55,931 nt of DNA. It comes from a filamentous cyanobacterium CCT1 (GTDB lineage: Bacteria > Cyanobacteriota > Cyanobacteriia > Phormidesmidales > Phormidesmidaceae). Both the position numbers and the translations under genes were made by a program. This document shows positions 17,659-46,026 of this stretch, one piece after another; within the stretch, counting starts at the first letter, position 1; each line of letters starts with the position of its first letter. Below the pieces are notes generated by a model that was not told the origin of the DNA, did no database searches, and worked only from the letters and a program-made list of their open reading frames with translations. The DNA lies in NCBI GenBank assembly GCA_003017855.1, contig PYER01000007.1, positions 1-55,931 on the forward strand, in the 5' to 3' direction.

Positions 17659-18622
17659 ACCTGAGTTCGGGTTAAGCCGAAGGCGGAAGAGCGAAGTCAA
17701 GATTGAGCGAGGGCTTCTTGGGCTGATGGCAGTAGGCAATCAAGCCACAGATAACATTGACCATGAAGTTAGCGGGGCTGCGATGCCTGGAATGCTCAAT
17801 CTGGGAGATGTTCTTGAGCTGGTCAATAACGGTTTCGACAATGGCACGCTTGCGGGCTAGTAACTTGTCGGTGAGCCGCATCAAGTGGTTTTTCATGTTG
17901 CGCCTGGGTTTGGCAAAGAACTCGATGCCACAGGTCTCAAAGAGCCGTTCTGCAAGTGCTTTGGAGACATAGCCCCGGTCAGCAAAGACCTTGCCATAGA
18001 GGCCTTGAAGCAAGTCCTCGACGGGCTTGCGGTCGTCGGTATTGCCCGGCGTGATTTGGATGTTGAGCAACTCCCCTTGGTCATTGACGACCAGGTGGAG
18101 TTTGAATCCAAAGAACCAGTCAACGGAGGTTTTGCCACGGGCCGCCAGGCCGCGAAACACCTTGTGGCGCCGAATCCGACGGTTGTGGCACACCTTGAGA
18201 CTGCTGCTATCGATAAAGCTGATGCCTGTGCAGGCCCCAAAACAGTGCTTGAGGTACACGCATAAGGGCAGCAGGGCTGAGGGCATCCATTCCACAAAGC
18301 GGTTGTAGCTGACCAGTCCGGGAAAGGCCTCTCGCCAGTGAACACAGACATGTTTGCAGTAGAACGCCTTGAAGTTGCGATAGTGCTGCTGATGGAAGCA
18401 CACCAGGATTGTCATCACCTCGCTCAAGCTCAGCGATCGCTGGCGCTGACGCTGCTGAACGCCTTCACCCAGCAGCAAGGAGTGCCATTTCGGCTCGAAC
18501 TGCTGGCAGAAATCATCGATATGGCAAAACAGCTCTTCTAGACTGTCCATAGGGGGGCCTGCTGAATCGTTTAGGTGATTTCAGCTTACAGAGCCCCTCC
18601 TTTCCTTATCCCGAACTGAGGT
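17659..18622. mobile_element. IS982-family insertion sequence, complete
   Basis: A 964-bp element bounded by 18-bp imperfect inverted repeats: ACCTGAGTTCGGGTTAAG at 17659-17676 and the complement of ACCTCAGTTCGGGATAAG at 18605-18622, with two mismatches. The hexamer TAATCA occurs directly outside both ends (17653-17658 and 18623-18628), consistent with a target-site duplication. Size, repeats and the single transposase fit the IS982 family. The matching duplication and intact transposase suggest a recent insertion. It sits between the last polysaccharide glycosyltransferase and the SGNH hydrolase and does not interrupt a recognisable gene. Confidence 0.88.
17672..18550 (-). CDS. IS982-family transposase
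   Basis: A 292-residue DDE transposase. The N-terminal domain ([14 protein letters not shown]) is typical of IS982. Catalytic-domain landmarks are [16 protein letters not shown], which provides the first Asp; [17 protein letters not shown] and [12 protein letters not shown], which provide the second Asp; and [13 protein letters not shown], which provides the Glu. The length is normal for the family and no frameshift or stop was seen, so the enzyme is probably active. The gene fills the insertion sequence and is much richer in GC than the flanking polysaccharide genes. Confidence 0.92.
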
Positions 18623-26897: not shown

Positions 26898-27551
26898 CTA
26901 ATAAGCCGATCGCATGTCGCCCCGTTCGGCGCGGGCGCTTTCTTTGGCTTTGGCGGCGCTCTTCTTGAGTGCTTCTAGACGTTTGATGTAGCGGTCGCGC
27001 TGGCGCTTCTTGGGGGTTTGCTCAATCAGGGTTTTGAGAGCGCTGCCCAGGCTCTTGTAAGCATTGGGCAGGGTGTAGCCAAAGCGAGTGGCAATGGCGA
27101 TCGCACGCTCGTCGGCGCTGATGCTCTCCTGCAGCGTTTTTTGGTTGTTGTTGCGCTTGTAGAGCCGCCAGCTAGAGAAGCCGCACAGGCTCAGGGCCAG
27201 CATGAGCAGCAGCCCGTCTTGCACCCACAGTTCGCCCACGGCACCGCCGAGGCCAATGGCCAGCGCCGCCATCTCCCAGCCATCGCGAGGAATGGTGTCG
27301 TTTTGGATGCGGCCCACCTCGTGCCAAAACAGCAGGTTGCGTTGATCGAGGGCCAGCTGCTCCCATTTGATCAGATCGACCTGAATTTCGACCTGGTCTT
27401 TGCCCAGTTCTTCACAGGTGATCAGCGGCGGGGTGACATCAATGGCTGACTCCACCGTCACCCAGCTTTGCAGCTCGGGGGGCAGTAGGCTTCTCAGACG
27501 GCGAAGCTCACCCATATCGGCGCGGGCAGTGGCGGTGGCGTACGAGGTCAT
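26898..27551 (-). CDS. DUF3318-type cyanobacterial membrane protein
   Basis: A 217-residue protein of the kind annotated DUF3318 in cyanobacteria. The N-terminal half contains ELRRLRSLLPPELQSWV and DQRNLLFWHEVGRIQND, the latter resembling a degenerate HExxH-like segment (FWHEVGRI). Two hydrophobic stretches follow (about 95-135). The C-terminal part is helical and strongly basic (KKRQRDRYIKRLEALKKSAAKAKESARAERG). Function is unknown. It is convergent with the CIA30 gene and 75 bases upstream of dusB on the same strand, with no sign of a shared role. Confidence 0.65.
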   Translation of the reverse strand: MTSYATATARADMGELRRLRSLLPPELQSWVTVESAIDVTPPLITCEELGKDQVEIQVDLIKWEQLALDQRNLLFWHEVGRIQNDTIPRDGWEMAALAIGLGGAVGELWVQDGLLLMLALSLCGFSSWRLYKRNNNQKTLQESISADERAIAIATRFGYTLPNAYKSLGSALKTLIEQTPKKRQRDRYIKRLEALKKSAAKAKESARAERGDMRSAY

Positions 27552-27626: not shown

Positions 27627-28703
27627 TTATCCGACGGGTAGAACTTCATGACGGTTAACCGGCCAGGACGGAGGACGTTCGATCGCTGCGATCGCATTAT
27701 CTAGCTCAGCGATCGCGCCATCGAGCAGGGCGTATCCGGCTTCAACCGTATCGATCTGGCAGAGCCGCTGACGCAGGGGAGCAGCTCCCTCAAAGCCTTT
27801 GACATACCAGGCCATGTGCTTGCGGGCCTGGTAGATACCCTTTTGCCCCTTGTACTGCCACAGCAGGCCGAGGTGCTCGCGGGCGCAGCGCAGCTTATCG
27901 ATGGGTGTGGGCGCTGGCGGCACGGTGCCAGTTTTGAGAAACGTATCAATTTCACCGACCAGAAAGGGATAGCCCAGGGTGCCCCGTGAGCACATGACGC
28001 CGTCGGCCCCGGTCTGCTCCAAACAGCGCACCGCCGACTCTACTGAGACAATGTCGCCATTGGCGATGACCGGAATGCTCAGCGCTGCCTTGACCTGGGC
28101 GATCCACTTCCACCGGGCGGGGCCGTGGTAGCCCTGGTGGCGGGTGCGGCCGTGGAGAGTGAGCATTTGCGCCCCGGCGGCCTCCATGCGGCGGGCAAAG
28201 TCAATGGCATTAATGGAGTCGTCATCCCAGCCAATGCGGGTTTTGACGGTAACAGGCACCGGCACCGCCGCCGCAACGGTGCGCACGATCGCCTCGGCCA
28301 CATCGGGCTGGCGCAGCAGCGACGAGCCGCCCCCTTTTTTTGTGATCTTATTCACCGGGCAGCCCATGTTGATGTCGATGGTTTTCGCCCCTTCGGCGAC
28401 GGCTTTAGCGGCGGCGGCGGCCATAAAGTCAGGCCGACAGTCAAACAGCTGAATGCTGATCGGCTGCTCGCTGGCGTCAATATCCATGATTTTTTCGAGC
28501 TGTTGGGCGTGACAGAGGCCCGTGGCCTGCACCATTTCGGTGTAGAGCATGGAGTCGGGGGCGTAGCGGCGCACCAGCTGGCGAAAGGCGCGATCGGTGA
28601 CGCCGGAGAGGGGCGACTGCAACACCCGGCTATGCAAGGTTACAGCGCCGATCGCTAGAGGCGATCGCAGCCGCTGCTGCAGGGTGGGAGACAGGCTGAC
28701 CAT
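27627..28703 (-). CDS. dusB: tRNA-dihydrouridine synthase
   Basis: A 358-residue FMN-dependent enzyme that reduces specific uridines in tRNA to dihydrouridine. It is a TIM barrel with LQSPLSGVTDRAFRQL at the start and the catalytic cysteine in INMGCPVNKITKKGGGSSLL (Cys115). FMN and RNA contacts lie in VKTRIGWDD, LHGRTRHQGY, VIANGDI and TGADGVMCSRGTLGYP. The length and the NMGCP motif fit the DusB group. It is flanked by unrelated genes and has 176 bases of upstream sequence containing a short 15-bp tandem repeat. Confidence 0.93.
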   Translation of the reverse strand: MVSLSPTLQQRLRSPLAIGAVTLHSRVLQSPLSGVTDRAFRQLVRRYAPDSMLYTEMVQATGLCHAQQLEKIMDIDASEQPISIQLFDCRPDFMAAAAAKAVAEGAKTIDINMGCPVNKITKKGGGSSLLRQPDVAEAIVRTVAAAVPVPVTVKTRIGWDDDSINAIDFARRMEAAGAQMLTLHGRTRHQGYHGPARWKWIAQVKAALSIPVIANGDIVSVESAVRCLEQTGADGVMCSRGTLGYPFLVGEIDTFLKTGTVPPAPTPIDKLRCAREHLGLLWQYKGQKGIYQARKHMAWYVKGFEGAAPLRQRLCQIDTVEAGYALLDGAIAELDNAIAAIERPPSWPVNRHEVLPVG

Positions 28704-28879: not shown

Positions 28880-30886
28880 CTAAGCCGATTGTATCCTCTC
28901 AGACCAGAGGCAGTAGCTATTGCGACCGCTCTCCTTGGCGGCGTAGAGGGCCTGATCAGCCCGCTGGATCAGGAGTTCGGTCGATAGGGTCGGGACCGGC
29001 GTTAGAACGGCAATCCCAAAACTGACGGTGACCTGCCCGTACAGGGGCGAGGCTGCGTTGGGAATGGCCAGGCGAGTCAAATAGGTTTTGGCTTCTGTGG
29101 CCAGGGCGATCGCCCCAGCCGAATTTGTATTGGGCAAAACCAGAGCAAATTCCTCCCCACCGTAGCGAGCGGCTAAGTCGGCAGGGCGTTTGGTCACCTG
29201 GTCTAGCAGTCGGGCGATCGATCGCAGGCAGTCGTCACCAGCCAGGTGGCCGTAGGTATCGTTGTAGCCTTTGAAGTGGTCAACGTCGGCCAAAACCAGG
29301 GCTAGGCTGCCCTGTTCGCGCTGCAGCCGCTGCCACTCCTGAGCTAGGTAGCGGTCGAACTCGCGACGGTTGGCAATCTGAGTCAGCCCGTCGAGGTGGG
29401 CCAGCCGCCGGAGTTCATCATTGGCCGCCTGGAGCTGCTGGTACAGGGCCGCCTGCTGTAGCGCCTGACTCAGCTGCATGGCCACCTCTTCTACCAGGCT
29501 CAGGTCGCTGTGCTCCCACTTGCTAGTTTTGTCAATGCTGCTCAGGTGATTGGGGGCGGGGCAGGCCCACAGCACCCCCTGCACCTGGTTATCAATACGA
29601 ATGGCCGTAGCCAGGTAGGTGTTTTCGCCCTGAACCACGAGCTGAGCCGCGTTGGAGCGCATCTGTAGTGGGTTGACCCGATAGGGCAGCACAATCAGGT
29701 CGTTGTCGAGCATGAGCTGCTGCCGCAGCGCTTCAGTAATCTCTAGAGGGGTGACAGGCTCACTCAGGGCTGGAGCCTGCACCGTCACCACAAACGGCGT
29801 GGGTAGGCCGGTCAGGTTGTGGCGCAGCAGCGTGATACCGCACTGGCGCAGGTTAAGGGCGGTGCCCAGGTGCTCTACAGTGCAGGTGAGAATGTGCTGC
29901 ACATCCAGGCTGGCGCGGATTTCATCCAGAATGTGGTTGAGCAACATCTCCTGGCGAGCCTGGTGCCGCACCTGCTCAAACAGGCGGCTCTGCTGAATGG
30001 CGATCGCCAGGTGGGCCGATATTTCCTGCAGTAGCTCAACCTCATCGGTCTGCCACCGCCGGGGCTGGTAGCACTGATGCACAATCATTAATCCCCACAG
30101 GTAGCGGTTCTGCCCCGGCAGGGTGTGAATGATAGGTGCCACCAGGTTGGCCCGAATGTCAAAGCTCAGCAGCATGTCGCGGTAGCACTGGCTAACGTTG
30201 CCCAAAGCCTCTACATCGCCGATGTACCCAACTCGCCCTGACCAGTACTTAACCGCGTGCTCTTGGTCAAAGCAGGCATCTTCTACCTGGCGGTGCAGCA
30301 CGCTGAGGCGCTCATCGAGCACGGCTTCGTGGGTTACCAGCCCCCGCCCATCCTGGCCAAACTGGTAAATAATGACGCGATCGGCAAGGATTTGCTGGCG
30401 TACATCCTGCACAGCCGTCTGCAAAATAGTGTTTAGATCGAGGGTGTTGTGCAGCCGCTGCAGGCTGTCTTTCAGCAACGAGGGGCGGATGGGCCTGGCG
30501 GTAGCAACGTCAATCCAGTGACTGACGCGAGCGGCTACATCGGCGGCTATGAAGGGAGACTCTAGATAGTCCACGCCACCTGCAGCAAAGACCTGCTCTC
30601 GGCTAGCAGCGTCTTTAAAGGTGCCAGCAAAGATTAGCGGTATGGCGGCTGTAGCAGGGTTGCCCTTTAGCCTGCGGCCCAAGCGATAGCCGCTGCTATC
30701 GGCCCCAAACACTTGCAAAAGGATTAGATCGGGCCATCGCTCTGGTCGCTGGGGTTGGGGTAAGATGTCGGCCTCGGCGCGCACCTGCACCTGATAGCTG
30801 GCGGCGACCAGCATTTGAACCAGGGCCTCTGTCTGGTGGGGGGGCGCTTCTGTAATGAAAACCGTTGCTGGCTGAAGTAACGTCAT
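28880..30886 (-). CDS. Diguanylate cyclase with degenerate REC, DXCF-type cyanobacteriochrome GAF and second GAF
   Basis: A 668-residue signalling protein predicted to make cyclic di-GMP under light control. Residues 1-128 form a receiver-like domain lacking the phosphoacceptor Asp (PDLILLQVF has Gln58). The first GAF (about 140-305) contains DACF (203-206), matching the DXCF motif of dual-cysteine cyanobacteriochromes. The canonical bilin-attachment position is Cys234 in SQCYRDML, 29 residues later, with Tyr instead of the common His. A second GAF spans about 325-480. The GGDEF domain (about 492-660) has DVDHFKGYNDTYGH, the active site GGEEF (576-580) and an inhibitory RxxD site (567-570). 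The two-cysteine pattern predicts a blue-absorbing form paired with a green- or teal-absorbing form, known from the family; binding of bilin here is inference. Confidence 0.85.
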   Translation of the reverse strand: MTLLQPATVFITEAPPHQTEALVQMLVAASYQVQVRAEADILPQPQRPERWPDLILLQVFGADSSGYRLGRRLKGNPATAAIPLIFAGTFKDAASREQVFAAGGVDYLESPFIAADVAARVSHWIDVATARPIRPSLLKDSLQRLHNTLDLNTILQTAVQDVRQQILADRVIIYQFGQDGRGLVTHEAVLDERLSVLHRQVEDACFDQEHAVKYWSGRVGYIGDVEALGNVSQCYRDMLLSFDIRANLVAPIIHTLPGQNRYLWGLMIVHQCYQPRRWQTDEVELLQEISAHLAIAIQQSRLFEQVRHQARQEMLLNHILDEIRASLDVQHILTCTVEHLGTALNLRQCGITLLRHNLTGLPTPFVVTVQAPALSEPVTPLEITEALRQQLMLDNDLIVLPYRVNPLQMRSNAAQLVVQGENTYLATAIRIDNQVQGVLWACPAPNHLSSIDKTSKWEHSDLSLVEEVAMQLSQALQQAALYQQLQAANDELRRLAHLDGLTQIANRREFDRYLAQEWQRLQREQGSLALVLADVDHFKGYNDTYGHLAGDDCLRSIARLLDQVTKRPADLAARYGGEEFALVLPNTNSAGAIALATEAKTYLTRLAIPNAASPLYGQVTVSFGIAVLTPVPTLSTELLIQRADQALYAAKESGRNSYCLWSERIQSA

Positions 30887-31254: not shown

Positions 31255-32742
31255 TTAAAGTCGCCCTACCAACCAGTAGGTCATCATTTGGCCACGGCCT
31301 TTGACCGCCACGTAGCCGCGCTGCTCAAACTGAAACTGGTCCTTCAGCCGTTCGTATAGCTCTGGAGTGACCTGAATGCGCTGGGCTTCGCCAGTCGCTT
31401 CCATGCGGCTGGCGATGTTGACGGTATCGCCCCAGAGGTCGTAAGCAAACTTGCGCCGCCCAATTACCCCGGCGACAACCGGTCCGGTATTGATGCCCAC
31501 CCGAATTTGAAAGGTTTTGCCATCGGGACGCTGAAACTGCTTGATCGCGTCGCAGATATCGAGGGCAAACTGCGCGATCGCGACCGCGTGATCATCGTTA
31601 GGGACGGGCAAGCCCCCCGCCACCATATAGGCATCGCCAATCGTCTTAATTTTTTCTAAACGGTGAAACTCGGCCAGCTGATCGAACATCGAGAAAACTT
31701 CGTTGAGCATCTTGACCAGCTGGCGCGGCGTCATCTGGCTGGAGGCGGCAGTAAAGTCAACCAGGTCGGCAAACAGCACGCTGACCTGGTCGAGGCTTTC
31801 GGCAATGGTGCGGGCACCCCCCTTGAGGCGCTGGGCAATGCGGTAGGGCAAAATATTGACCAGCAGGCGATCGGCCTGCTGGCGCTGCTGGCGCAGTTCG
31901 GTCTCCATCTGGCGCCGTTCGCTAATGTCGTGGACAATGCCCTCGTAGTGCAGAAAGGTGCCCACTTTATCCCACACCTTCCAGATGTCTTCGCTGACCC
32001 AAAAGGTGGTGCCGTCTTTACGAAATACCTCTGATTCGGCGTCGGTGATTTTGTCAAAGCGGTTGAGGTAGACCACCAGCTCATCGCGGCGCTTGGGCTG
32101 AAGATAGATCTGGCGGCTAATATCGGCGACGGTAGCCACCATCTCCTGGGCCGACTCATAGCCGTAGAGACGCGCCATGGAGGGGTTGACGCTGAGCAAC
32201 TGCCCCTTCGCCGAGGCTTTAAAGATGCCCACCGTGGCGTTTTCAAAAATGCTGCGGTAGTTCATCTCGACCGCAATCAGCGCCTGCTCCATCTGGGTGC
32301 GCTCGTTCACCTCCTGGATGAGCAGAGCGTTTTGCTGGCTGAGCTGGTGCCGCTGCTGAGCCAATCGCAGCTGGTTCTGCACGCGCACCAGCACTTCCTG
32401 CACGGCAAAGGGCTTGGTGATGTAGTCGGTCGCTCCGGCCTGGAAGGCTTTGACCTTGTCGATGGAGTCGACCAGAGAACTCAGCACAATCACCGGGATC
32501 TCGGCGGTGACAGGGTTTTGCTTGAGCTGCTGACAGAGGCTATAGCCGTCCATGTCGGGCAGCAGCAGATCGAGCAGCACCAGGCCGGGCCGAGACGCCA
32601 CAATGGAGGCGATCGCCTGCTGGCCACTTTCGGCCACCTGGATTCGGTACCCTTGCTGGCTCAGCAGCCGCTGCAGCAGGCACGAAGTCTCAGCATCGTC
32701 GTCGACGATGACTAGATCAATGGCAGCGAAGGCATCATCCAC
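31255..32742 (-). CDS. REC-PAS-class III adenylate cyclase
   Basis: A 495-residue cyclase predicted to make cAMP. The receiver domain (about 9-125) is intact: acidic pair Asp14/15, phosphoacceptor Asp58 in LVLLDLLLPDMDGY and Lys110 in YITKPF. A PAS domain follows (about 155-275, ending HDISERRQ) and then a helical linker. The catalytic domain (about 310-490) has metal-binding Asp326 and Asp370 (FADLVDF, IGDAY), the adenine-selecting Lys366 and Asp435 (KTIGD, YDLWGD), and the transition-state residues Asn442 and Arg446 (VNIASRM). These residues favour ATP over GTP. Phosphorylation by a histidine kinase probably controls it; no kinase gene is adjacent. Confidence 0.9.
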   Translation of the reverse strand: MDDAFAAIDLVIVDDDAETSCLLQRLLSQQGYRIQVAESGQQAIASIVASRPGLVLLDLLLPDMDGYSLCQQLKQNPVTAEIPVIVLSSLVDSIDKVKAFQAGATDYITKPFAVQEVLVRVQNQLRLAQQRHQLSQQNALLIQEVNERTQMEQALIAVEMNYRSIFENATVGIFKASAKGQLLSVNPSMARLYGYESAQEMVATVADISRQIYLQPKRRDELVVYLNRFDKITDAESEVFRKDGTTFWVSEDIWKVWDKVGTFLHYEGIVHDISERRQMETELRQQRQQADRLLVNILPYRIAQRLKGGARTIAESLDQVSVLFADLVDFTAASSQMTPRQLVKMLNEVFSMFDQLAEFHRLEKIKTIGDAYMVAGGLPVPNDDHAVAIAQFALDICDAIKQFQRPDGKTFQIRVGINTGPVVAGVIGRRKFAYDLWGDTVNIASRMEATGEAQRIQVTPELYERLKDQFQFEQRGYVAVKGRGQMMTYWLVGRL

Positions 32743-32951: not shown

Positions 32952-34037
32952 TTAACGCACTTTGAGAGAGCCGCCGCGATCGCGGTAGCCGGTCACTAGC
33001 CCCTGCCGAAAGGTAACTTCACCGTCGCTGAAATGAAACACTTCCTCGCAGTTGGTATCGTTGCGGCTGATTGCGACGGGGGTTTGCGCTTCGGCCCGCA
33101 GCACTTCGGCGCGGCTAGAGCCCATTGTCCAGAACGGCGGGGCGGCCTGGTCAGAGGCTGGGGCGGGCAACTGCAGCGACACCTTGAGGTTGTTGTCGGA
33201 GTTTAGGTAGCCAATCACCTGGCCATTTTCAAACAGCACGGAGCTTTTGCCGTAGTAAAAGGTGGTAAACCGCTCAGAGGTGTACTGTTCCTGACGGGTG
33301 GGCGCGCCCTGAATTTGCACCACATCGGCCTGGGTAGACCCCAGTGTCCAGCTGCCCTGGGCGGCTTTGGCCGATACAACGGTTGACTCATTGGCAAGCA
33401 CCCGCAGATTGCCGTCGGCGTTGTCATACTGTTTGACGTAGCCGTTGTGCAGTTCGACAAAGCTGTTGCCGTAGCGCAGGGTTTGCTGGCAGGCGGTGTG
33501 GTACTGCATAGTCTGGGAGGGTGCCCCCTGAATCGCCATCACCAGGTCGCGGTCGGAGCCCAGCGTCCAGTAGGTTTTATCGGTGGGGGTGCGGCGGTCA
33601 CGGGTGCCGACATTACTCTGGGCGTACTTCAAGTTGCGCTCGTACTCGACCACTTTTTGCTGGGCCAGGGCGCCGTTGGGGCTGGCCTTGGGTACCGATC
33701 GCATGTGGGCGATCGCCTGTTGCCAGAGCATAGCGACCTCGGTCCAGTCTTCGCTAAATTCTGCGGTTTGGGTCAGCTCTGCGGCAGCCATGGCCTGCCC
33801 GGCTCCCTGGCGAAAGGGGTCGTTCTGAGCGGCGGCGGCGGCTCGATTGGGCCAGGACCACGATCGCGCCTGGGGAACCAGCAGAAAAGCGCTGGCAGCT
33901 ATGCCTAGCCCCACGGATAGCCCCAGTGCGCCCCAGGTCAGCCGTTCTCGCAGGGTTTGGCCGGGGCGTTTGAGTTGGAATGTGTATAGGGTTTGAGGGT
34001 TTTGCCCGTCTAGCTCAGGGTGGCTATGCTTAGTCAT
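32952..34037 (-). CDS. Membrane-anchored protein with three tandem WTLGS repeats
   Basis: A 361-residue protein of unknown function. A basic cytoplasmic start (TLRERL) precedes one membrane segment (about 34-56), an Ala/Gln-rich helical region, and three modules of about 57 residues (157-213, 230-286, 303-361). The modules open with WTLGSDRD, WTLGSTQA and WTMGSSRA and close with GNLRV, NNLKV and GSLKV. The middle of each reads like RYGNSFVELHNGYV, a BamE/SmpA-like strand pattern (QGAP turn followed by FxNG). ATG 34037 was preferred to the GTG seven codons upstream. It stands alone between the cyclase and recJ. It probably projects from the membrane. Confidence 0.65.
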   Translation of the reverse strand: MTKHSHPELDGQNPQTLYTFQLKRPGQTLRERLTWGALGLSVGLGIAASAFLLVPQARSWSWPNRAAAAAQNDPFRQGAGQAMAAAELTQTAEFSEDWTEVAMLWQQAIAHMRSVPKASPNGALAQQKVVEYERNLKYAQSNVGTRDRRTPTDKTYWTLGSDRDLVMAIQGAPSQTMQYHTACQQTLRYGNSFVELHNGYVKQYDNADGNLRVLANESTVVSAKAAQGSWTLGSTQADVVQIQGAPTRQEQYTSERFTTFYYGKSSVLFENGQVIGYLNSDNNLKVSLQLPAPASDQAAPPFWTMGSSRAEVLRAEAQTPVAISRNDTNCEEVFHFSDGEVTFRQGLVTGYRDRGGSLKVR

Positions 34038-34058
34038 AGTAGTTCGTAAGGAGTCCAC

Positions 34059-40347: not shown

Positions 40348-41223
40348 TTAGAGGCTAGCAGGGGTAACGCTGGTTACCCTACCACCCATGGCGTTAATCT
40401 GCTGCAGCTTGGCCGACAGCTTTTCGTAGGGCACCAGGTAGGAGGTGTTGATCCGCCGTACCTTGGGGTAGCGGGGCAGGTTGGCACCCATGACCTCGAT
40501 GCGGTATACCCTCCCGGCGTTGGCACCGTAGGGGGTAGACCCGCCCAGAGCCTGACTGGGGGTAGCCAGCTTATTGGCCTGAGACGACCAGCCCGCGGCC
40601 GCACTGGTAGGTGCAATCACCGATGAGGAGGTGTTGCGGCCCAGTTCACCCGCCAGGCGCGACTTTTTGCCGCCCGCTTGCGAGGTATCGCTGGTGGCGT
40701 AGCCCCGATACATTTGGAACATGCGGGTAAAGCCCACCGAACGCTGCCCGGCCTGGTAGACAAAGCTGCGGTAGTAGGGCACTACGTTGTCGCCAAAGTT
40801 GGCCTGGTACTCTTCGCTGTCGATGAAAGAATCAACGTCGGCGTCGTAGCCCTGGGTTTCGTAGCGATCGAGGTGCTCAACGACTTCAGACTCGTCGTAG
40901 ACGGCGCGACCCAGCAGGTGCTTGGTGTGCAGCTCAATCACGCGGGTCTGAAAGTTGCCGTAGAAGAACTTTTCTTTGTAGAGCTCAGACTTGGCCACGG
41001 CCCGCACAAAGTCGCGCACGCTAATGTAGCCATTCTTCAGCAGTGACTCAGCCCCAACCAGGCGCTCAGACTTCATTAGGTAGTCGTTGCCCAGCAGCTG
41101 GCGGTACACAGCCTTAATCACGAGTTCGGCGTCTTCGGGAGACCAGTTGGCGCGTAGCTCTACGGGCGAACTTTCGTCGTACGCAGCGGTCCCCAACCGG
41201 GATGCTGCCGTTGTAATAGGCAC
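40348..41223 (-). CDS. cpcC1: Phycocyanin rod linker CpcC1
   Basis: A 291-residue rod linker. The N-terminal Pfam-type PBS linker domain (about 20-150) has [42 protein letters not shown] and [18 protein letters not shown] (key FGDNVVPY). The C-terminal CpcD-like domain (about 235-290) has YRIEVMGA and [21 protein letters not shown]. It joins phycocyanin hexamers into rods and tunes energy transfer. The start is GTG at 41223, preceded by a strong AAGGAGG. It is the second of two paralogous linkers after cpcA, the order seen in other cyanobacteria (cpcBA-C2-C1-D). Confidence 0.92.
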
Positions 41224-41293
41224 AGGAATATCCTCCTTATCAACACAGTCTTATCAACACGGTGAGCGTGAGCCCACTCAACACAGCAGAATA

Positions 41294-41422
41294 AAAAAAT
41301 GGCGGAGCACTCTCGGCCAAACTCATCTCAAGCCGAAGCGATCGCAGACCTTAGCCCCCGTCACCCCCGCTCAAATGAGATCGCCATAGAACCTTGCCAG
41401 AGCAAGACCAAGCACTCCGCCA
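41294..41422 (-). terminator. Structured region with T-run between cpcC2 and cpcC1
   Basis: Read on the minus strand, TGGCGGAG (from 41422) can pair with CTCCGCCA (ending 41300), followed directly by a run of seven Ts (41294-41299 region). The loop is long, about 106 bases, with smaller hairpins inside. It may be a partial terminator that limits read-through to cpcC1. Confidence 0.45.
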
Positions 41423-41443
41423 GAGAGGTATTAAAGCCGCAAC

Positions 41444-42256
41444 CTAGGCCAGGTCGACTTTAGTTACCCGACCGCCAGTGCGGTTAACTTGCTGAAGCTT
41501 GCGAGACAGCTGCTCGTAGGGCACCAAAAACTCGGTGCAGGTGCGCCGCACCTGGGGGCTGCCCGCCACGGCAGCCTGAGTTACCCGAACCCGGTAGAGC
41601 TTCTCGCGATCGCCTCCAGACCCACCGACAATAGCGGCTCCGGTAGCTCCGCTGCCCACGGGCGAAGCAGAGTTTTTAGCAATTTCAGATACCAGCTTGG
41701 CTCGCGCGCCTTGGGCGCGATCGCTGGTACCATAGCCCCGATAGAGCTGAAAGAAGCGGGTAAACCCGACCGTCTTTTGGCTCCGCTGGGTCAGGTGACC
41801 GCGATAGCTGGGCACTACGTTGTCCCCAAAGTTGTCGCGGTACTCTTGGGAATCAAGGTAGGAGTTGATTTCCGCTGCGTAGCCGTAGGTGTTGTAAAGG
41901 TCGGTGTGAAAAGCGATTTCGTCCTGGCCGTAGGGCGCCCGACCCAGCAGGTTTTTGTAGTTCAGCTCAATAAAGCGATTTTGCGGACCACTCAGGAAAA
42001 ACTTGTCCCGATATAGGTCTGATAGGGCCAAAGCCCGCACAAAGTCACGAACTGAAATGTCTCCTTGCCGGAGTAACGACTCGGCGCTGGTATTGCGCTC
42101 GCTAGCCATAATGTACTGGTTGCCAAAGACCTGGCGGTAAGCAGCCCGAATCACTGCTTCCACATCGCCTTCAACCCAGTTGGGCCGTAGCTCAACCCGC
42201 ATCGACTCATTGTAGGGCGAAACGCCAAGGCGTCCCGCCGCAGTGGTCACTGCCAT
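41444..42256 (-). CDS. cpcC2: Phycocyanin rod linker CpcC2
   Basis: A 270-residue rod linker, paralogous to CpcC1. The linker domain has [38 protein letters not shown] and [17 protein letters not shown]; the C-terminal CpcD-like domain has [10 protein letters not shown] and [16 protein letters not shown]. The ATG at 42256 ([11 protein letters not shown]) was chosen because AAGGAGG lies six bases upstream; the frame is open to 42304 without a comparable site. It follows cpcA with a perfect 9-bp stem-loop in between. It should sit in outer rod positions. Confidence 0.92.
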
Positions 42257-42289
42257 GGTTGCCTCCTTGGGCGTATATAGATACAACAA

Positions 42290-42348
42290 TGCCCGGAGCA
42301 ACAAACAATCGCTAACAAGTCGCTAACAACTGTCTGCCCCTCCGGGCA
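42290..42348 (-). promoter_or_regulatory. Attenuator-like stem-loop between cpcA and cpcC2
   Basis: TGCCCGGAG (42290-42298) and CTCCGGGCA (42340-42348) are exact complements with a 41-base loop. The loop holds a direct repeat, TCGCTAACAA twice (42309-42318 and 42320-42329). The stem starts 11 bases after the cpcA stop. Read-through control at this position would keep cpcBA mRNA in excess over linker mRNA. No clear T-run follows. Confidence 0.55.
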
Positions 42349-42358
42349 AATGGCCAAC

Positions 42359-42847
42359 CTAGCTTAGAGCGTTGATGGCGTAGTCGATGTAGGAGTTGGC
42401 TTCAACGGCGCCGTCGCCAGACAGACCGTGGTTAGCTTTGATGTGCTTCAGAGCTTCCACGTACCAGCTGGGAGACAGTTCGAAGGTGCTGTTGATTTCA
42501 TCCAGGCCAGCAACCAGGTACTCATCCATGGGGCCAGTACCGCCAGCGATCAGGCAGTAGGTGACCATCCGGAGGTAGTAGCCGATATCGCGAGCACACT
42601 TGGCTTTACCGCGCTCGTCAGCAGCGTAGTTAGGCCCCTGCATTTGGGTGGTGTAGGGGAACTTGTTGTACACGGCTTGAGCGGCGCCGCTTACCAGAGA
42701 GTCAGACTTGGTGGTCAGAGCTTTAGCAGCTTCTAGACCAGACTGAGCCTGGCGAAAACGGCCAAAGGCGGTTTGCATCTCGGTGCTGCTCAGGAAACGG
42801 CCCTGGGAATCAGCAGCAGCCACAGCTTCGGTCAAAGGGGTTTTCAT
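42359..42847 (-). CDS. cpcA: Phycocyanin alpha subunit (CpcA)
   Basis: A 162-residue globin-like light-harvesting protein of exactly the usual length. The chromophore cysteine is Cys84 in [13 protein letters not shown]. The start [20 protein letters not shown] (key TPLTEA...AADSQGRFL) and the C-terminus [14 protein letters not shown] are canonical. It pairs with CpcB in (alpha-beta) hexamers of the phycobilisome rod. AAGGAGA lies upstream of the start. It is the second gene of the operon, 109 bases after cpcB. The sequence is phycocyanin, not phycoerythrin, since it has a single bilin cysteine and matching length. Confidence 0.97.
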
Positions 42848-42956
42848 AGCTTAAGGTTCTCCTTCAGTGGTCTTCACAGCGAGTAAATCAAATGAAAGGG
42901 ATTGCGCGAATGGCCCGTGGCCAGCAGGCGCAAACCGACGAAGCGCTTGGTTAAAC

Positions 42957-43475
42957 CTAAGCAACTGCAGCCGCAGCCAGGTCGAAGTAGCTGCCGATCT
43001 CGGAAACGAGGGAGCTGCAATCACCCTGGGTGATGTTGCTGGTGTCGTTAACGATAGCGATAGCGGCGCCTTTCATTTTCTCAACGCCAGCGGCCACAGA
43101 AGCACCGGGGGTACCCAGAGCAACGTAGGTCTCACGCAGGCCGTTCAGGCAGCGATCGTTGAGAACGCTGGCATCGCCAGAGAAGATAGCGTAGGTAACG
43201 TAGCGCAGGATGATCTCCATGTCGCGGAGGCAAGCAGCCATGCGACGGTTGGTGTAGGCGTTGCCACCGGGAGCGATCAGCTGGGGTTGCTCGGCGAACA
43301 GAGCGCGAGCAGCATCAGAAACGATCTTGGAAGAGTTGCTGGTGATGCGGTTCACGGAGTCCATACGCTTGTTGCTGTCGGCAACCATGCGCTGAAGAGC
43401 ATCGATCTGATCGGTGGAGAGGAAGTCGCCTCGTGCGTCAGCTTGGGAAACGACTTTAGTGAATGCGTCAAACAT
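42957..43475 (-). CDS. cpcB: Phycocyanin beta subunit (CpcB)
   Basis: A 172-residue phycocyanin beta chain. Both bilin cysteines are present: Cys82 in [15 protein letters not shown] and Cys153 in [12 protein letters not shown]. Asn72, the residue normally methylated in beta phycobiliproteins, is in PGGNAY. The ATG at 43475 (MFDAFTKVV) has an AGGAG site upstream and gives the standard length; the frame stays open a further 23 codons without such support. It is the promoter-proximal gene of the cpcBAC2C1DEF operon and should be among the most highly expressed genes of the cell. Confidence 0.97.
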
Positions 43476-44164
43476 CGACTCAAATCTCCTAATATTTTTG
43501 TCGCTGAGTTTGCTTGAAAATGGTCCTAAGACCGAGTTAATCATTAGTTCAGCCGGAGCTGCCTAACCAATCTATAGGAAGGATCTTAAAGATCAGCGTG
43601 CTCGGTTTTCTCATCTAGTTTACATTTCTTCAAGCTTGTTCAAGCTTCTACACAATCGGCTCAACACACTTGAAAGGAAGGTGGATGAGAGTGAGAAAAA
43701 GCGGCTCTGTAAGAGATCCGCAACATTCCTCGAAACCGTTGCCTGAATTGGCTTTCGCTAATTCAATTAACCCTCCAGACATGTTTATACACCGCCCGTG
43801 TGTCTTTATCTTTTACAAGTTATTAAGGAAAAGCGACCCTTGTGTCGGGGGCAAAGCGAAAGAATTCAGCCGCTCTGGGCACTCTAGCTCTTCGCAGGGC
43901 TCTTCAAGTCTTCTCAGACGGCGTAACATTACTCAACAAAAGGGCCCGCCCTGGCCGATTTACAGTGGGGGCTGCTGCCGCCTCTGCCAAAGCGTTAACC
44001 CCTCTTCTGATGGGCGATCGCGCCTTGTACAGCCGTCTATTCCAGAGATTGGCGGCATTCACCCTGGTGGCAGCGGTATGATCCATGCAGAGCAGTACGA
44101 CCAGTGCTTGCCGGGCTGAGTCGATGCATTTCTGAGAACGCTAGTAAGTAATAGAACCTGCCCC
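43476..44164 (-). promoter_or_regulatory. Divergent cpcB/cpcS control region and probable long cpcB leader
   Basis: The 689 bases between cpcB (minus) and cpcS (plus) hold no recognisable gene. Notable items are a TTCAAGCTTG/TTCAAGCTTC direct repeat at 43629-43648, just next to GTTTACATTT (43618-43627), which resembles one half of an HLR1-type RpaB site; and a 9-bp hairpin TGAATTGGC (43744-43752) with GCTAATTCA (43757-43765). Long untranslated leaders are common for cpc operons. The promoter itself is not pinpointed. Confidence 0.5.
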
Positions 44165-44752
44165 ATGGACGTAATGGACTTTTTCCGCATGAGTGCGGGC
44201 CAGTGGAATTCTCAACGCACCACCCACCACCTGCCCTTTCGCCGGGCCGAACTGGGCGGCTCAACTATTTCGGTAGAGGCCCTCGAACAGGGGCACCCCA
44301 GCGTAGTCGAAATTTGCCAACTCCACGATGTCGACCCTGCCCTGGCGGTCGGTGGAGCCTATGTGACCTGGGACGGCGCGATGGCCTGGGATAAAGACGA
44401 TGAAAACCACGCTGGCAGCACGGTGTTTGCCCTGGTGCCCGATGTCGACGACCCCAGCCGTGGGCAGCTCTTGCGCGAGCGCGGCTACGCCGAAATTGTG
44501 CCCGTGATCGGTCGCTACGAAATTGATGGCGATGGTGGGCTGCTGCTGATTACCGAATATGAAACGATGAGCTCGGTCGAGCGATTTTGGTTTGCCAACC
44601 CCAACCTGCGGCTGCGCACCAGCGTGGTGAAGCGGTTTGGCGGCTTTAGCACGGCGTCGTTTTGCGCCGAGTCGCGTTTGGCTGAGCCTGCCGCTGAAGC
44701 TGAAGACGCCAAGGAACAGGTGTTGGCCCCTGTCTCAGCCTTCGGCTGGTAA
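44165..44752 (+). CDS. cpcS: Phycobiliprotein lyase CpcS/CpeS family
   Basis: A 195-residue lipocalin-fold lyase that attaches phycocyanobilin to Cys82-type positions of beta phycocyanin and allophycocyanins. The N-terminus MDFFRMSAGQWNSQRTTHH is diagnostic (key FFRMSAGQW...RTTHHL). Later blocks are VEICQLHDVDP, VTWDGAMAWD, VPVIGRYEIDGDGGLLLITEYETMSSVERFWF (key EYETMSSVERFWF) and LRLRTSVVKRFGGFSTASFCAE. It complements CpcE/CpcF, which load CpcA. It is divergent from cpcB and followed by a stem-loop. Confidence 0.92.
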   Translation: MDVMDFFRMSAGQWNSQRTTHHLPFRRAELGGSTISVEALEQGHPSVVEICQLHDVDPALAVGGAYVTWDGAMAWDKDDENHAGSTVFALVPDVDDPSRGQLLRERGYAEIVPVIGRYEIDGDGGLLLITEYETMSSVERFWFANPNLRLRTSVVKRFGGFSTASFCAESRLAEPAAEAEDAKEQVLAPVSAFGW

Positions 44753-44793
44753 GCGCTGGGCCGATTCCTTGTCGGTAGTGTAAACAGCATCAC

Positions 44794-44835
44794 CATAGGC
44801 AAAGCCCTCCCTGATTTGGAGAGGGCTTTGCTATG
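44794..44835 (+). terminator. Stem-loop terminator candidate after cpcS
   Basis: CATAGGCAAAGCCCTC (44794-44809) pairs with GAGGGCTTTGCTATG (44821-44835): 15 base pairs with one bulged G and an 11-base loop. It begins 41 bases after the cpcS stop. There is no T-run on the plus strand. Confidence 0.6.
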
Positions 44836-45282
44836 TGCGTAGCCAACTGTAGGTTCTACAGCAAAGCCGAACTCAATCTGTAGGGGTTGCCGTGGGACGA
44901 ATGGCGTCATCCTGCTGCTGCGCTGATAACGCCATTGGGCCACCTCTACCGAATTTAGCCCGCCTGTAGGCTAGGCATCTGATTTAGGCTAGATGCCCAG
45001 GTGGGAACGCGGCTGGCATCGTCATTAAATTCTTTTTAGAGTAGAAAATAATGCTGCTTCAGCAACTTTGAAGAAACGTGACTGATTGTTACTCTCCCTG
45101 TCGAAATAAGAATGTCTGATCCCCGTTGCTCGTAGGCTAGGCCTTAGCTGTTTCTGACCCAGTTACAGTTAAAACCCAAGCATAGTTGAGGGTCTATAAA
45201 TAACTACGGAGATTGTCAATTTGGTGTGATTACTGATAGTTGATGAAAGCCATTTTATTTTGCGTATGGAGGAAAAATCGTT
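44836..45282. other. Upstream region of cpcL
   Basis: About 450 bases without a recognisable gene. AT content rises from about 45030 on, and a GGAGGA ribosome-binding site (about 45269) precedes the GTG start of cpcL. I looked for the tandem CTTTNCNATTT motif bound by CcaR upstream of cpcG2 in Synechocystis and did not see it, so regulation may differ. Confidence 0.45.
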
Positions 45283-46026
45283 GTGACTTTGCCGCTATTA
45301 ACCTATGCCCCTAGCAGTCAAAACCAGCGCGTGGAGGGCTATGAGGTGCCTGGAGACGAGCATTCTAGAATTTTTACGCTGGAGCAAAACCACGATAAAG
45401 ACGATGTTGATGCCTTAGTGACGGCGGCCTATCGACAAATTTTTCACGAGCAGCAAATGCTGAAAAGCAATCGCCAAACATTGCTGGAGTCTCAGCTGCG
45501 GGGCGGTTTGATTTCGGTCAAAGATTTTGTGCGGGGCCTCGCTACCTCTGATGCGTTTCGCACCTGGAACTATGAGGTAAACAACAACTATCGCTTCGTC
45601 GAGTTGTGCGTGCAGCGGCTGCTCGGACGCAAGGTTTACGACGACAAAGAAACCCTGGCCTGGTCAATTGTGCTGGCGACGAAGGGGGTTGAGGGGCTGG
45701 TTGATGCTCTGATGAGCAGTGAAGAGTATGTGACCAATTTTGGCGATCGCACCGTACCCTACCAGCGGCGGCGGGTGCTGCCCCAGCGATCGCAGGGCGA
45801 CCTGCCCTTTGAGCGCGTACCTCGCTACACCCGCGACCACCTGACCACGCTGGAGGCTCTGGGTTACGACTTTTCGAGCGATCGCCGCCTTGACCAGGAT
45901 GACTGGATGGCAACGCCCGACGGCGTGCGCAAAGCGGCTGGGGCCGTAACGGCGGGCTTGGCCATTTTCTTCGGCCTGATAGCGGTGGCGGTCGTGCTGT
46001 CGTGGTTCGGCTGGATCACCATTTGA
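45283..46026 (+). CDS. cpcL: Membrane-anchored phycobilisome rod linker CpcL (CpcG2-type)
   Basis: A 247-residue rod linker. The PBS linker domain (about 35-165) has DDVDALVTAAYRQIF, ISVKDFVRGLATSDAFRTWNYEVNNNYRFVEL (key FVRGLATSDAFR) and EEYVTNFGDRTVPYQRRR, the CpcG-type signature. Unlike core-binding CpcG1, the C-terminus ends in a hydrophobic helix (about 219-243, GLAIFFGLIAVAVVLSWF), the hallmark of CpcL. CpcL assembles core-less phycocyanin rods that anchor in the thylakoid and feed mainly photosystem I. The start is GTG at 45283, with GGAGGA upstream. A T-rich terminator lies 168 bases after the stop, with a MITE-like element in between. Confidence 0.92.
   Translation: MTLPLLTYAPSSQNQRVEGYEVPGDEHSRIFTLEQNHDKDDVDALVTAAYRQIFHEQQMLKSNRQTLLESQLRGGLISVKDFVRGLATSDAFRTWNYEVNNNYRFVELCVQRLLGRKVYDDKETLAWSIVLATKGVEGLVDALMSSEEYVTNFGDRTVPYQRRRVLPQRSQGDLPFERVPRYTRDHLTTLEALGYDFSSDRRLDQDDWMATPDGVRKAAGAVTAGLAIFFGLIAVAVVLSWFGWITI

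Follow-up and report, generated by a model that had tools for sequence, protein, structure and literature searches.

A probable DXCF cyanobacteriochrome diguanylate cyclase with a degenerate receiver domain in the filamentous cyanobacterium CCT1

Results

Gene, domain layout and relatives

The window analysed here, the whole stretch of 55,931 nucleotides from the genome of the filamentous cyanobacterium CCT1, contains on its minus strand a gene for a multidomain protein that begins with an N-terminal receiver and ends with a GGDEF domain (Table 1). The reading frame starts with ATG, ends with a stop codon at 28880-28882 and lies at exactly the coordinates given by the first-pass annotation, which had named no strand; read on the plus strand, the same interval is interrupted by many stops. 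Pfam recognizes the GGDEF domain (residues 496-656, 1.5e-51) and two GAF stretches (the better one at residues 150-297, 1.8e-24), while its Response_reg model reaches 21.9 bits, below the cut-off of 30.2. Among NCBIfam models, that of PleD ranks first with 164.9 bits, far under its cut-off of 474, and the general GGDEF model scores 160.9 bits, above its cut-off of 37.4. The earlier description of the protein, as a diguanylate cyclase with a DXCF GAF domain, was right for the parts that it named, but it mentioned neither the strand, nor the receiver, nor the second GAF domain, and it did not note the gene order around the gene or its scattered occurrence among close relatives. In the full-length predicted model residues 8-129 show the alternating order of strands and helices that resembles a receiver; the pTM of this model is 0.41, hence the geometry between its domains is uninformative.

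Table 1. Coordinates of the gene, its predicted domains and motifs, and its neighbors
Feature	Coordinates	Strand	Description or evidence
Whole gene, 668 aa	28880..30886	-	Degenerate REC / DXCF GAF / GAF2 / GGDEF
Degenerate REC, residues 7-125	30512..30868	-	Sub-threshold Pfam match, columns compared with 12 relatives, strand/helix alternation in the model
GAF1, residues 140-305, bilin-binding-type cyanobacteriochrome domain	29972..30469	-	Pfam, profile alignment, predicted fold
DACF motif, residues 203-206, second Cys = Cys205	30269..30280	-	Alignment to TePixJ, conservation
Cys234-Tyr235, canonical bilin-attachment Cys	30182..30187	-	Alignment to TePixJ, conservation
GAF2, residues about 315-480	29447..29944	-	Second Pfam GAF stretch, model, alignment
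Part of the long predicted helix (459-524) joining GAF2 to GGDEF	29402..29512	-	Model
GGDEF diguanylate cyclase domain, residues 496-660	28907..29401	-	Pfam, NCBIfam
RPAD (RxxD) product-inhibition site, residues 567-570	29177..29188	-	Column comparison
GGEEF active-site motif, residues 576-580	29147..29161	-	Column comparison
Upstream neighbor: REC-PAS-class III nucleotide cyclase, receiver intact	31255..32742	-	Pfam
Downstream neighbor: tRNA dihydrouridine synthase DusB	27627..28703	-	NCBIfam

At a threshold of E 1e-100, with the best 21 candidates per genome scored, the gene was found in 7 of the 26 genomes of the same genus, CCT1 included. A search with GAF1 only, in which every candidate was scored, returned identities of 74-99% in the same seven genomes and of at most 47% elsewhere. 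Among the best 80 of 162 matches, which fall on 79 loci, the whole protein was matched at two, in the filamentous cyanobacterium CCP3 and in Nodosilinea sp. LEGE 06152, and the other loci listed match mainly the GGDEF part. Five further relatives from three other genera were recovered among 37 other-genus genomes (63 genomes of the order were searched). We aligned the CCT1 protein with 12 relatives that are 37-95% identical to it, which gave a set of eight same-genus proteins and five from other genera. The GGEEF and RxxD motifs, which the first-pass annotation had read as intact, are invariant in all 13 proteins.

GAF1 has a cyanobacteriochrome/phytochrome-type predicted fold and both cysteine positions of the DXCF class

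The DACF motif containing Cys205 and a second cysteine, Cys234, 29 residues farther on can be read in the sequence, as had been reported before. We built a profile from 31 DXCF GAF domains, chosen for the motif out of 38 domains, and the profile alignment to TePixJ (3vv4) pairs Cys205 with the Cys of the DPCF motif and Cys234 with that of ECH. Against the PDB, 107 distinct sequences pass 1e-8 with this profile (60 shown), and a phmmer search with GAF1 returned 30 distinct sequences at E 0.01 or better, including RcaE and TePixJ. The AlphaFold2 model of GAF1 (mean pLDDT 86.1) gave, in Foldseek, query-normalized TM scores of 0.86-0.88 to 6oap and 6ob8, 0.78 to 4glq and 0.73-0.75 to 3vv4, the last two entries being the TePixJ GAF according to their Foldseek titles. 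In VIA-align, all 50 matches listed (Z 22.5-24.5 over 145-166 residues) are cyanobacteriochrome or phytochrome GAF domains or fluorescent proteins derived from them; TePixJ, present in the Foldseek results, is absent among these 50. The placement of both cysteines in the chromophore pocket, as proposed in the first pass, thus agrees with the alignment to the bilin cysteines of TePixJ and with the predicted fold; the refuting result named there, an alignment that sets either cysteine outside the pocket, did not occur.

In sequence, the solved structures nearest to GAF1 are 6oap and those of the miRFP670nano proteins, and these carry Tyr in place of Cys205; hence, the DXCF assignment of GAF1 rests on the motif and its conservation, and not on overall likeness. 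None of the 13 aligned proteins departs from Asp203, Cys205, Cys234 or Tyr235, and since identity in this set goes down to 37%, these motif residues are not there by chance; Phe206 is kept in 11 of the 13 and is replaced by Leu in the proteins from genomes G062 and G063. One could still regard the two cysteines as a coincidence and GAF1 as a non-photosensory GAF domain, given that the DXCF cysteine is missing from the nearest solved structures and that, of the 18 top-scoring profile matches in the CCT1 genome, 11 are without the full motif pair. However, with both residues positioned on bilin cysteines in the profile alignment and with their invariance among all the aligned proteins, we find such a coincidence hardly credible. 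Alignment and model together support the assignment to GAF1 of the bilin-binding cyanobacteriochrome/phytochrome fold with both cysteine positions of the DXCF class.

The first-pass annotation had taken the DXCF motif and the spacing of 29 together as defining this class. The motif does lie at the position of the TePixJ DPCF, but the spacing is not a defining feature: it is 28 in Tlr0924 and, counted on the 3vv4 alignment, in TePixJ, and among the 31 DXCF GAF domains it is 28 in 19, 29 in 8 and 30 in 4. We therefore discarded the spacing of 29 as a hallmark, 28 being the commonest value (19/31); within the 31 aligned domains, 29 is confined to the CCT1 protein and its same-genus counterparts (eight in all). 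The suggestion that Tyr replaces a common His after the canonical cysteine did not hold either, because Tyr is about as frequent there as His (17 versus 14 of 31), and the reading of Tyr235 as an anomaly was dropped. Counted on the 3vv4 alignment, and with the canonical cysteine of TePixJ taken by us to be residue 522, Leu239 is equated with Leu527 and occupies the Tyr/Leu tuning position, as in ordinary DXCF domains. Leu527 is named as the TePixJ residue at the tuning position in PMC7504144.

The receiver has lost its phosphorylation residues within the genus

In the CCT1 receiver, Gln58 (30713-30715) stands in place of the phosphoacceptor Asp, Ser in place of the Lys of K-P-F, and the acidic pair reads Glu-Ala. 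The eight same-genus proteins have Gln (seven) or Pro (one) at the phosphoacceptor site and Ser (three), Tyr (two), Leu (two) or Pro (one) at the Lys site, and they retain one residue of the acidic pair or none; Asp, Lys and the acidic pair are all present in the five relatives from other genera (5/5). The CCT1 domain thus does not have the residues of a phosphorylated, PleD-like response regulator, and the comparison suggests that phosphorylation has likely been lost as a receiver input in CCT1's genus. The five other-genus relatives also have about 150 extra residues between the receiver and GAF1. Three of these stretches were scanned with Pfam: that of G084 contains PAS_4 (1.2e-10), and those of G032 and G085 gave nothing at 0.001.

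Since the receiver is kept in eight same-genus proteins without its phosphorylation residues, it appears still to do something. A degenerate receiver may serve dimerization, by analogy with PleD, and the N-terminal domain of the CCT1 protein may act as a dimer or docking platform. GAF2, which has neither a DXCF nor a canonical-Cys motif in the 13 aligned proteins, was rejected as a second bilin site. The retention of the receiver, along with that of the second GAF domain in all 13 proteins, would also fit an enzyme for which light is not the governing input, one whose GAF1 binds bilin but which either acts mainly as a scaffold or is under the control of a GAF2 ligand or a receiver partner. Yet it is the bilin motif of GAF1 that is invariant in the alignment, whereas the receiver and the middle of GAF2 have few invariant columns, and we regard such an enzyme, not governed by light, as quite improbable.

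A conserved two-cyclase neighborhood from which the gene is often absent

CCT1 shares the order cyclase, diguanylate cyclase, dusB with the six remaining carriers of its genus, with LEGE 06152 and with three genomes of two other genera, G032, G084 and G085 (in G085 about 2 kb separate the diguanylate cyclase gene from dusB). Neither the cyclase nor dusB was seen in the 13 kb read around the genes of G062 and G063. The loci of these two genomes (L170 in G062, L172 in G063) thus lie outside the conserved gene order; in their proteins DXCF has become DPCL, with both cysteines kept.

The REC-PAS-class III cyclase has a match at 1e-120 in 24 of the 26 same-genus genomes and adjoins the diguanylate cyclase gene, or else dusB, in the 19 same-genus regions that were read. 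Nineteen of the 26 genomes are without the diguanylate cyclase gene. In all 12 gene-less regions read, the cyclase and dusB adjoin directly, with a gap of 15-247 bp (15-19 bp in seven of these regions); in the remaining seven genomes, the flanks lie on separate contigs or at a large distance from each other, or one or both flank matches are missing. No remnant of the gene was detected by tblastn in the 12 empty sites, the matches there being to the neighboring cyclase's own receiver, apart from one 14-residue match with E 7.6.

The tree of four flanking proteins and the tree of the diguanylate cyclase place the carriers in the same order, and, as the same gene order also occurs in two other genera, gain by transfer in the carriers is not favored. 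Counting changes gives five losses against four changes if one loss is followed by three regains at one site. Of the accounts that avoid reinsertion at a single site, the simplest in our judgement is one with five separate losses; this is a judgement only, because four changes suffice when regain is allowed and one node bearing on the choice has a support of 0.52.

Other genes in this part of the window can be noted. A protein of about 368 aa (32952-34058, minus strand) adjoins the cyclase throughout the regions read in this genus; it has no NCBIfam match, and its one Pfam match is sub-threshold. A 217-aa protein (26898-27551, minus strand), also without an NCBIfam match, was seen in 18 same-genus regions; its identity across them is 93.5-100%, which exceeds the conservation of its neighbors. 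Farther away, a transposase-like frame of 292 aa (17672-18550, minus strand) was recognized by eye where it borders a block of glycosyltransferase genes.

Bilin synthesis and other DXCF proteins in the CCT1 genome

The CCT1 genome contains one match to Fe_bilin_red (bilin reductase) and one to PilZ, along with two heme oxygenases. Within the window, phycobilisome linker and phycobiliprotein-like genes were recognized by eye at 40348-46026, consistent with a bilin-making host. The DXCF GAF profile returned 39 matches in the genome, 18 of them above 70 bits, and in 7 of these 18 both the D-x-C-F motif and the canonical cysteine could be read from the aligned rows. Of the six that remain besides the protein described here, Pfam scans of two show C239 to be an EAL-GAF-GGDEF protein (with DTCF and PCH) and C293 a GAF-PAS-GAF-GGDEF protein; C173 and C430 are probably DXCF GGDEF proteins as well, since for each the open frame that holds the GGDEF match is listed with the same length as that of the GAF match. 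The genome would accordingly encode at least three DXCF GGDEF proteins and probably five, a multiplicity that recalls SesA, SesB and SesC of Thermosynechococcus.

Discussion

We propose that the CCT1 protein in all likelihood couples a dual-cysteine cyanobacteriochrome of the DXCF type to a diguanylate cyclase under its control; its motifs and predicted fold make a light-regulated enzyme of the kind of SesA (Tlr0924) of Thermosynechococcus very probable. The likeness to SesA, drawn from published descriptions of Tlr0924, lies in the combination of a two-cysteine DXCF GAF domain with a GGDEF domain subject to RxxD product inhibition (excerpts of PMC5871770 and PMC4223177). The CCT1 chain differs in having a degenerate N-terminal receiver and a second GAF domain, the N-terminal domains of SesA being outside this comparison, and in its cysteine spacing of 29, as against 28 between Cys499 and Cys527 of Tlr0924 (PMC4223177, in part). 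SesC, a bifunctional cyanobacteriochrome diguanylate cyclase/phosphodiesterase of the same organism, would share light-controlled c-di-GMP turnover with it (PMC5871770, in part), but the CCT1 protein has no phosphodiesterase domain; in the CCT1 genome it is C239 that carries EAL together with GGDEF. TePixJ has the same GAF fold and both bilin cysteine positions, yet it is a chemotaxis-type transducer and its canonical cysteine is followed by His, unlike the Tyr of CCT1. PleD-type diguanylate cyclases likewise combine an N-terminal receiver with a C-terminal GGDEF domain, but the CCT1 receiver is without the phosphorylation residues and two GAF domains lie between receiver and GGDEF. A similar design is seen in the REC-DXCF GAF-GAF-GGDEF proteins of G032, G084 and G085, which share the gene order, a DXCF/CY GAF, a second GAF and the GGDEF domain, whereas their receivers are intact (Asp, Lys) and are followed by about 150 more residues before GAF1.

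As to the bilin, the colors, the direction of control and the physiology, we infer them by analogy with SesA/Tlr0924 and the DXCF class, as described in PMC5871770, PMC4223177, PMC8846402 and PMC11284453. Phycocyanobilin (PCB) would be attached to GAF1 through Cys234 and isomerized by this domain, fully or partly, to phycoviolobilin (PVB). In the dark 15Z state, a second, reversible bond from Cys205 to C10 would produce a blue-absorbing form; blue light would then flip the D ring to 15E and release Cys205, giving a green- or teal-absorbing form. The change would pass via GAF2 and the long helix into the GGDEF dimer, which would make c-di-GMP, with product bound at RxxD holding synthesis in check. 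Most likely, blue light would switch synthesis on, as in SesA. However, with a second GAF domain between sensor and cyclase, the coupling may differ from that of SesA, and photoactivation could run the opposite way.

The excerpts of PMC11284453 and PMC6628166 typically link the DXCF motif with PVB and with a dark state that absorbs blue light. Such cysteine pairs do not always mean PVB or a blue/green cycle, since Tlr0924 holds a mixture of PCB and PVB (PMC4223177, in part) and AM1_1186g2, a dual-cysteine domain with PCB, has a red/blue cycle (PMC6628166, in part). GAF1 might accordingly be an atypical bilin sensor that keeps PCB, with no PVB formed, or has an inverted photocycle, so that green or red light turns synthesis on. 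The PCB fraction of Tlr0924 and the red/blue cycle of AM1_1186g2 lend this some plausibility, as does the restriction of the spacing of 29 to the eight same-genus proteins; but spacings of 28 and 30 are both found in other DXCF GAF domains, and the usual association of the motif is with PVB and a blue-absorbing dark state. We therefore consider an atypical sensor of this kind improbable and retain the SesA-like, blue-activated cyclase as the preferred reading.

Taken together with its neighborhood, the gene may belong to a two-messenger cassette present in three genera, in which a receiver-controlled class III cyclase (probably producing cAMP) and a light-controlled diguanylate cyclase are adjacent. 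In the ancestor of the genus, an integrator of phosphorylation and light would have turned into a light-only switch through decay of the receiver and loss of the linker; several lineages would then have deleted the diguanylate cyclase cleanly while keeping the cyclase, and so uncoupled light from c-di-GMP at this locus. We offer this history tentatively, as a possibility that falls somewhat short of even chances.

In Thermosynechococcus, light-controlled c-di-GMP signaling leads to aggregation and switches phototaxis (excerpts of PMC5871770 and PMC9090330), and in Leptolyngbya boryana a different protein, CHASE2-PAS-GGDEF, suppresses gliding and biofilm formation (PMC10581220, in part). A literature search that mostly covered sources other than subscription papers, and not full texts throughout, returned no REC-CBCR-GAF-GGDEF architecture, and the titles and abstract openings of four papers in which both Nodosilinea and cyanobacteriochrome occur mention no light-gated diguanylate cyclase. 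The kind of protein is already known, and its basic mechanism is established for SesA; what adds interest is that the receiver has decayed, that the two-cyclase neighborhood is conserved and that the gene is absent in patches. If our reading is right, a light-gated diguanylate cyclase would be added in a Nodosilinea-type filament. The decayed receiver would offer a natural experiment on input loss in multi-input c-di-GMP enzymes, and the seven genomes with the gene and the 12 empty sites read would provide natural with/without sets of close relatives in which a role in motility or biofilm formation may be sought.
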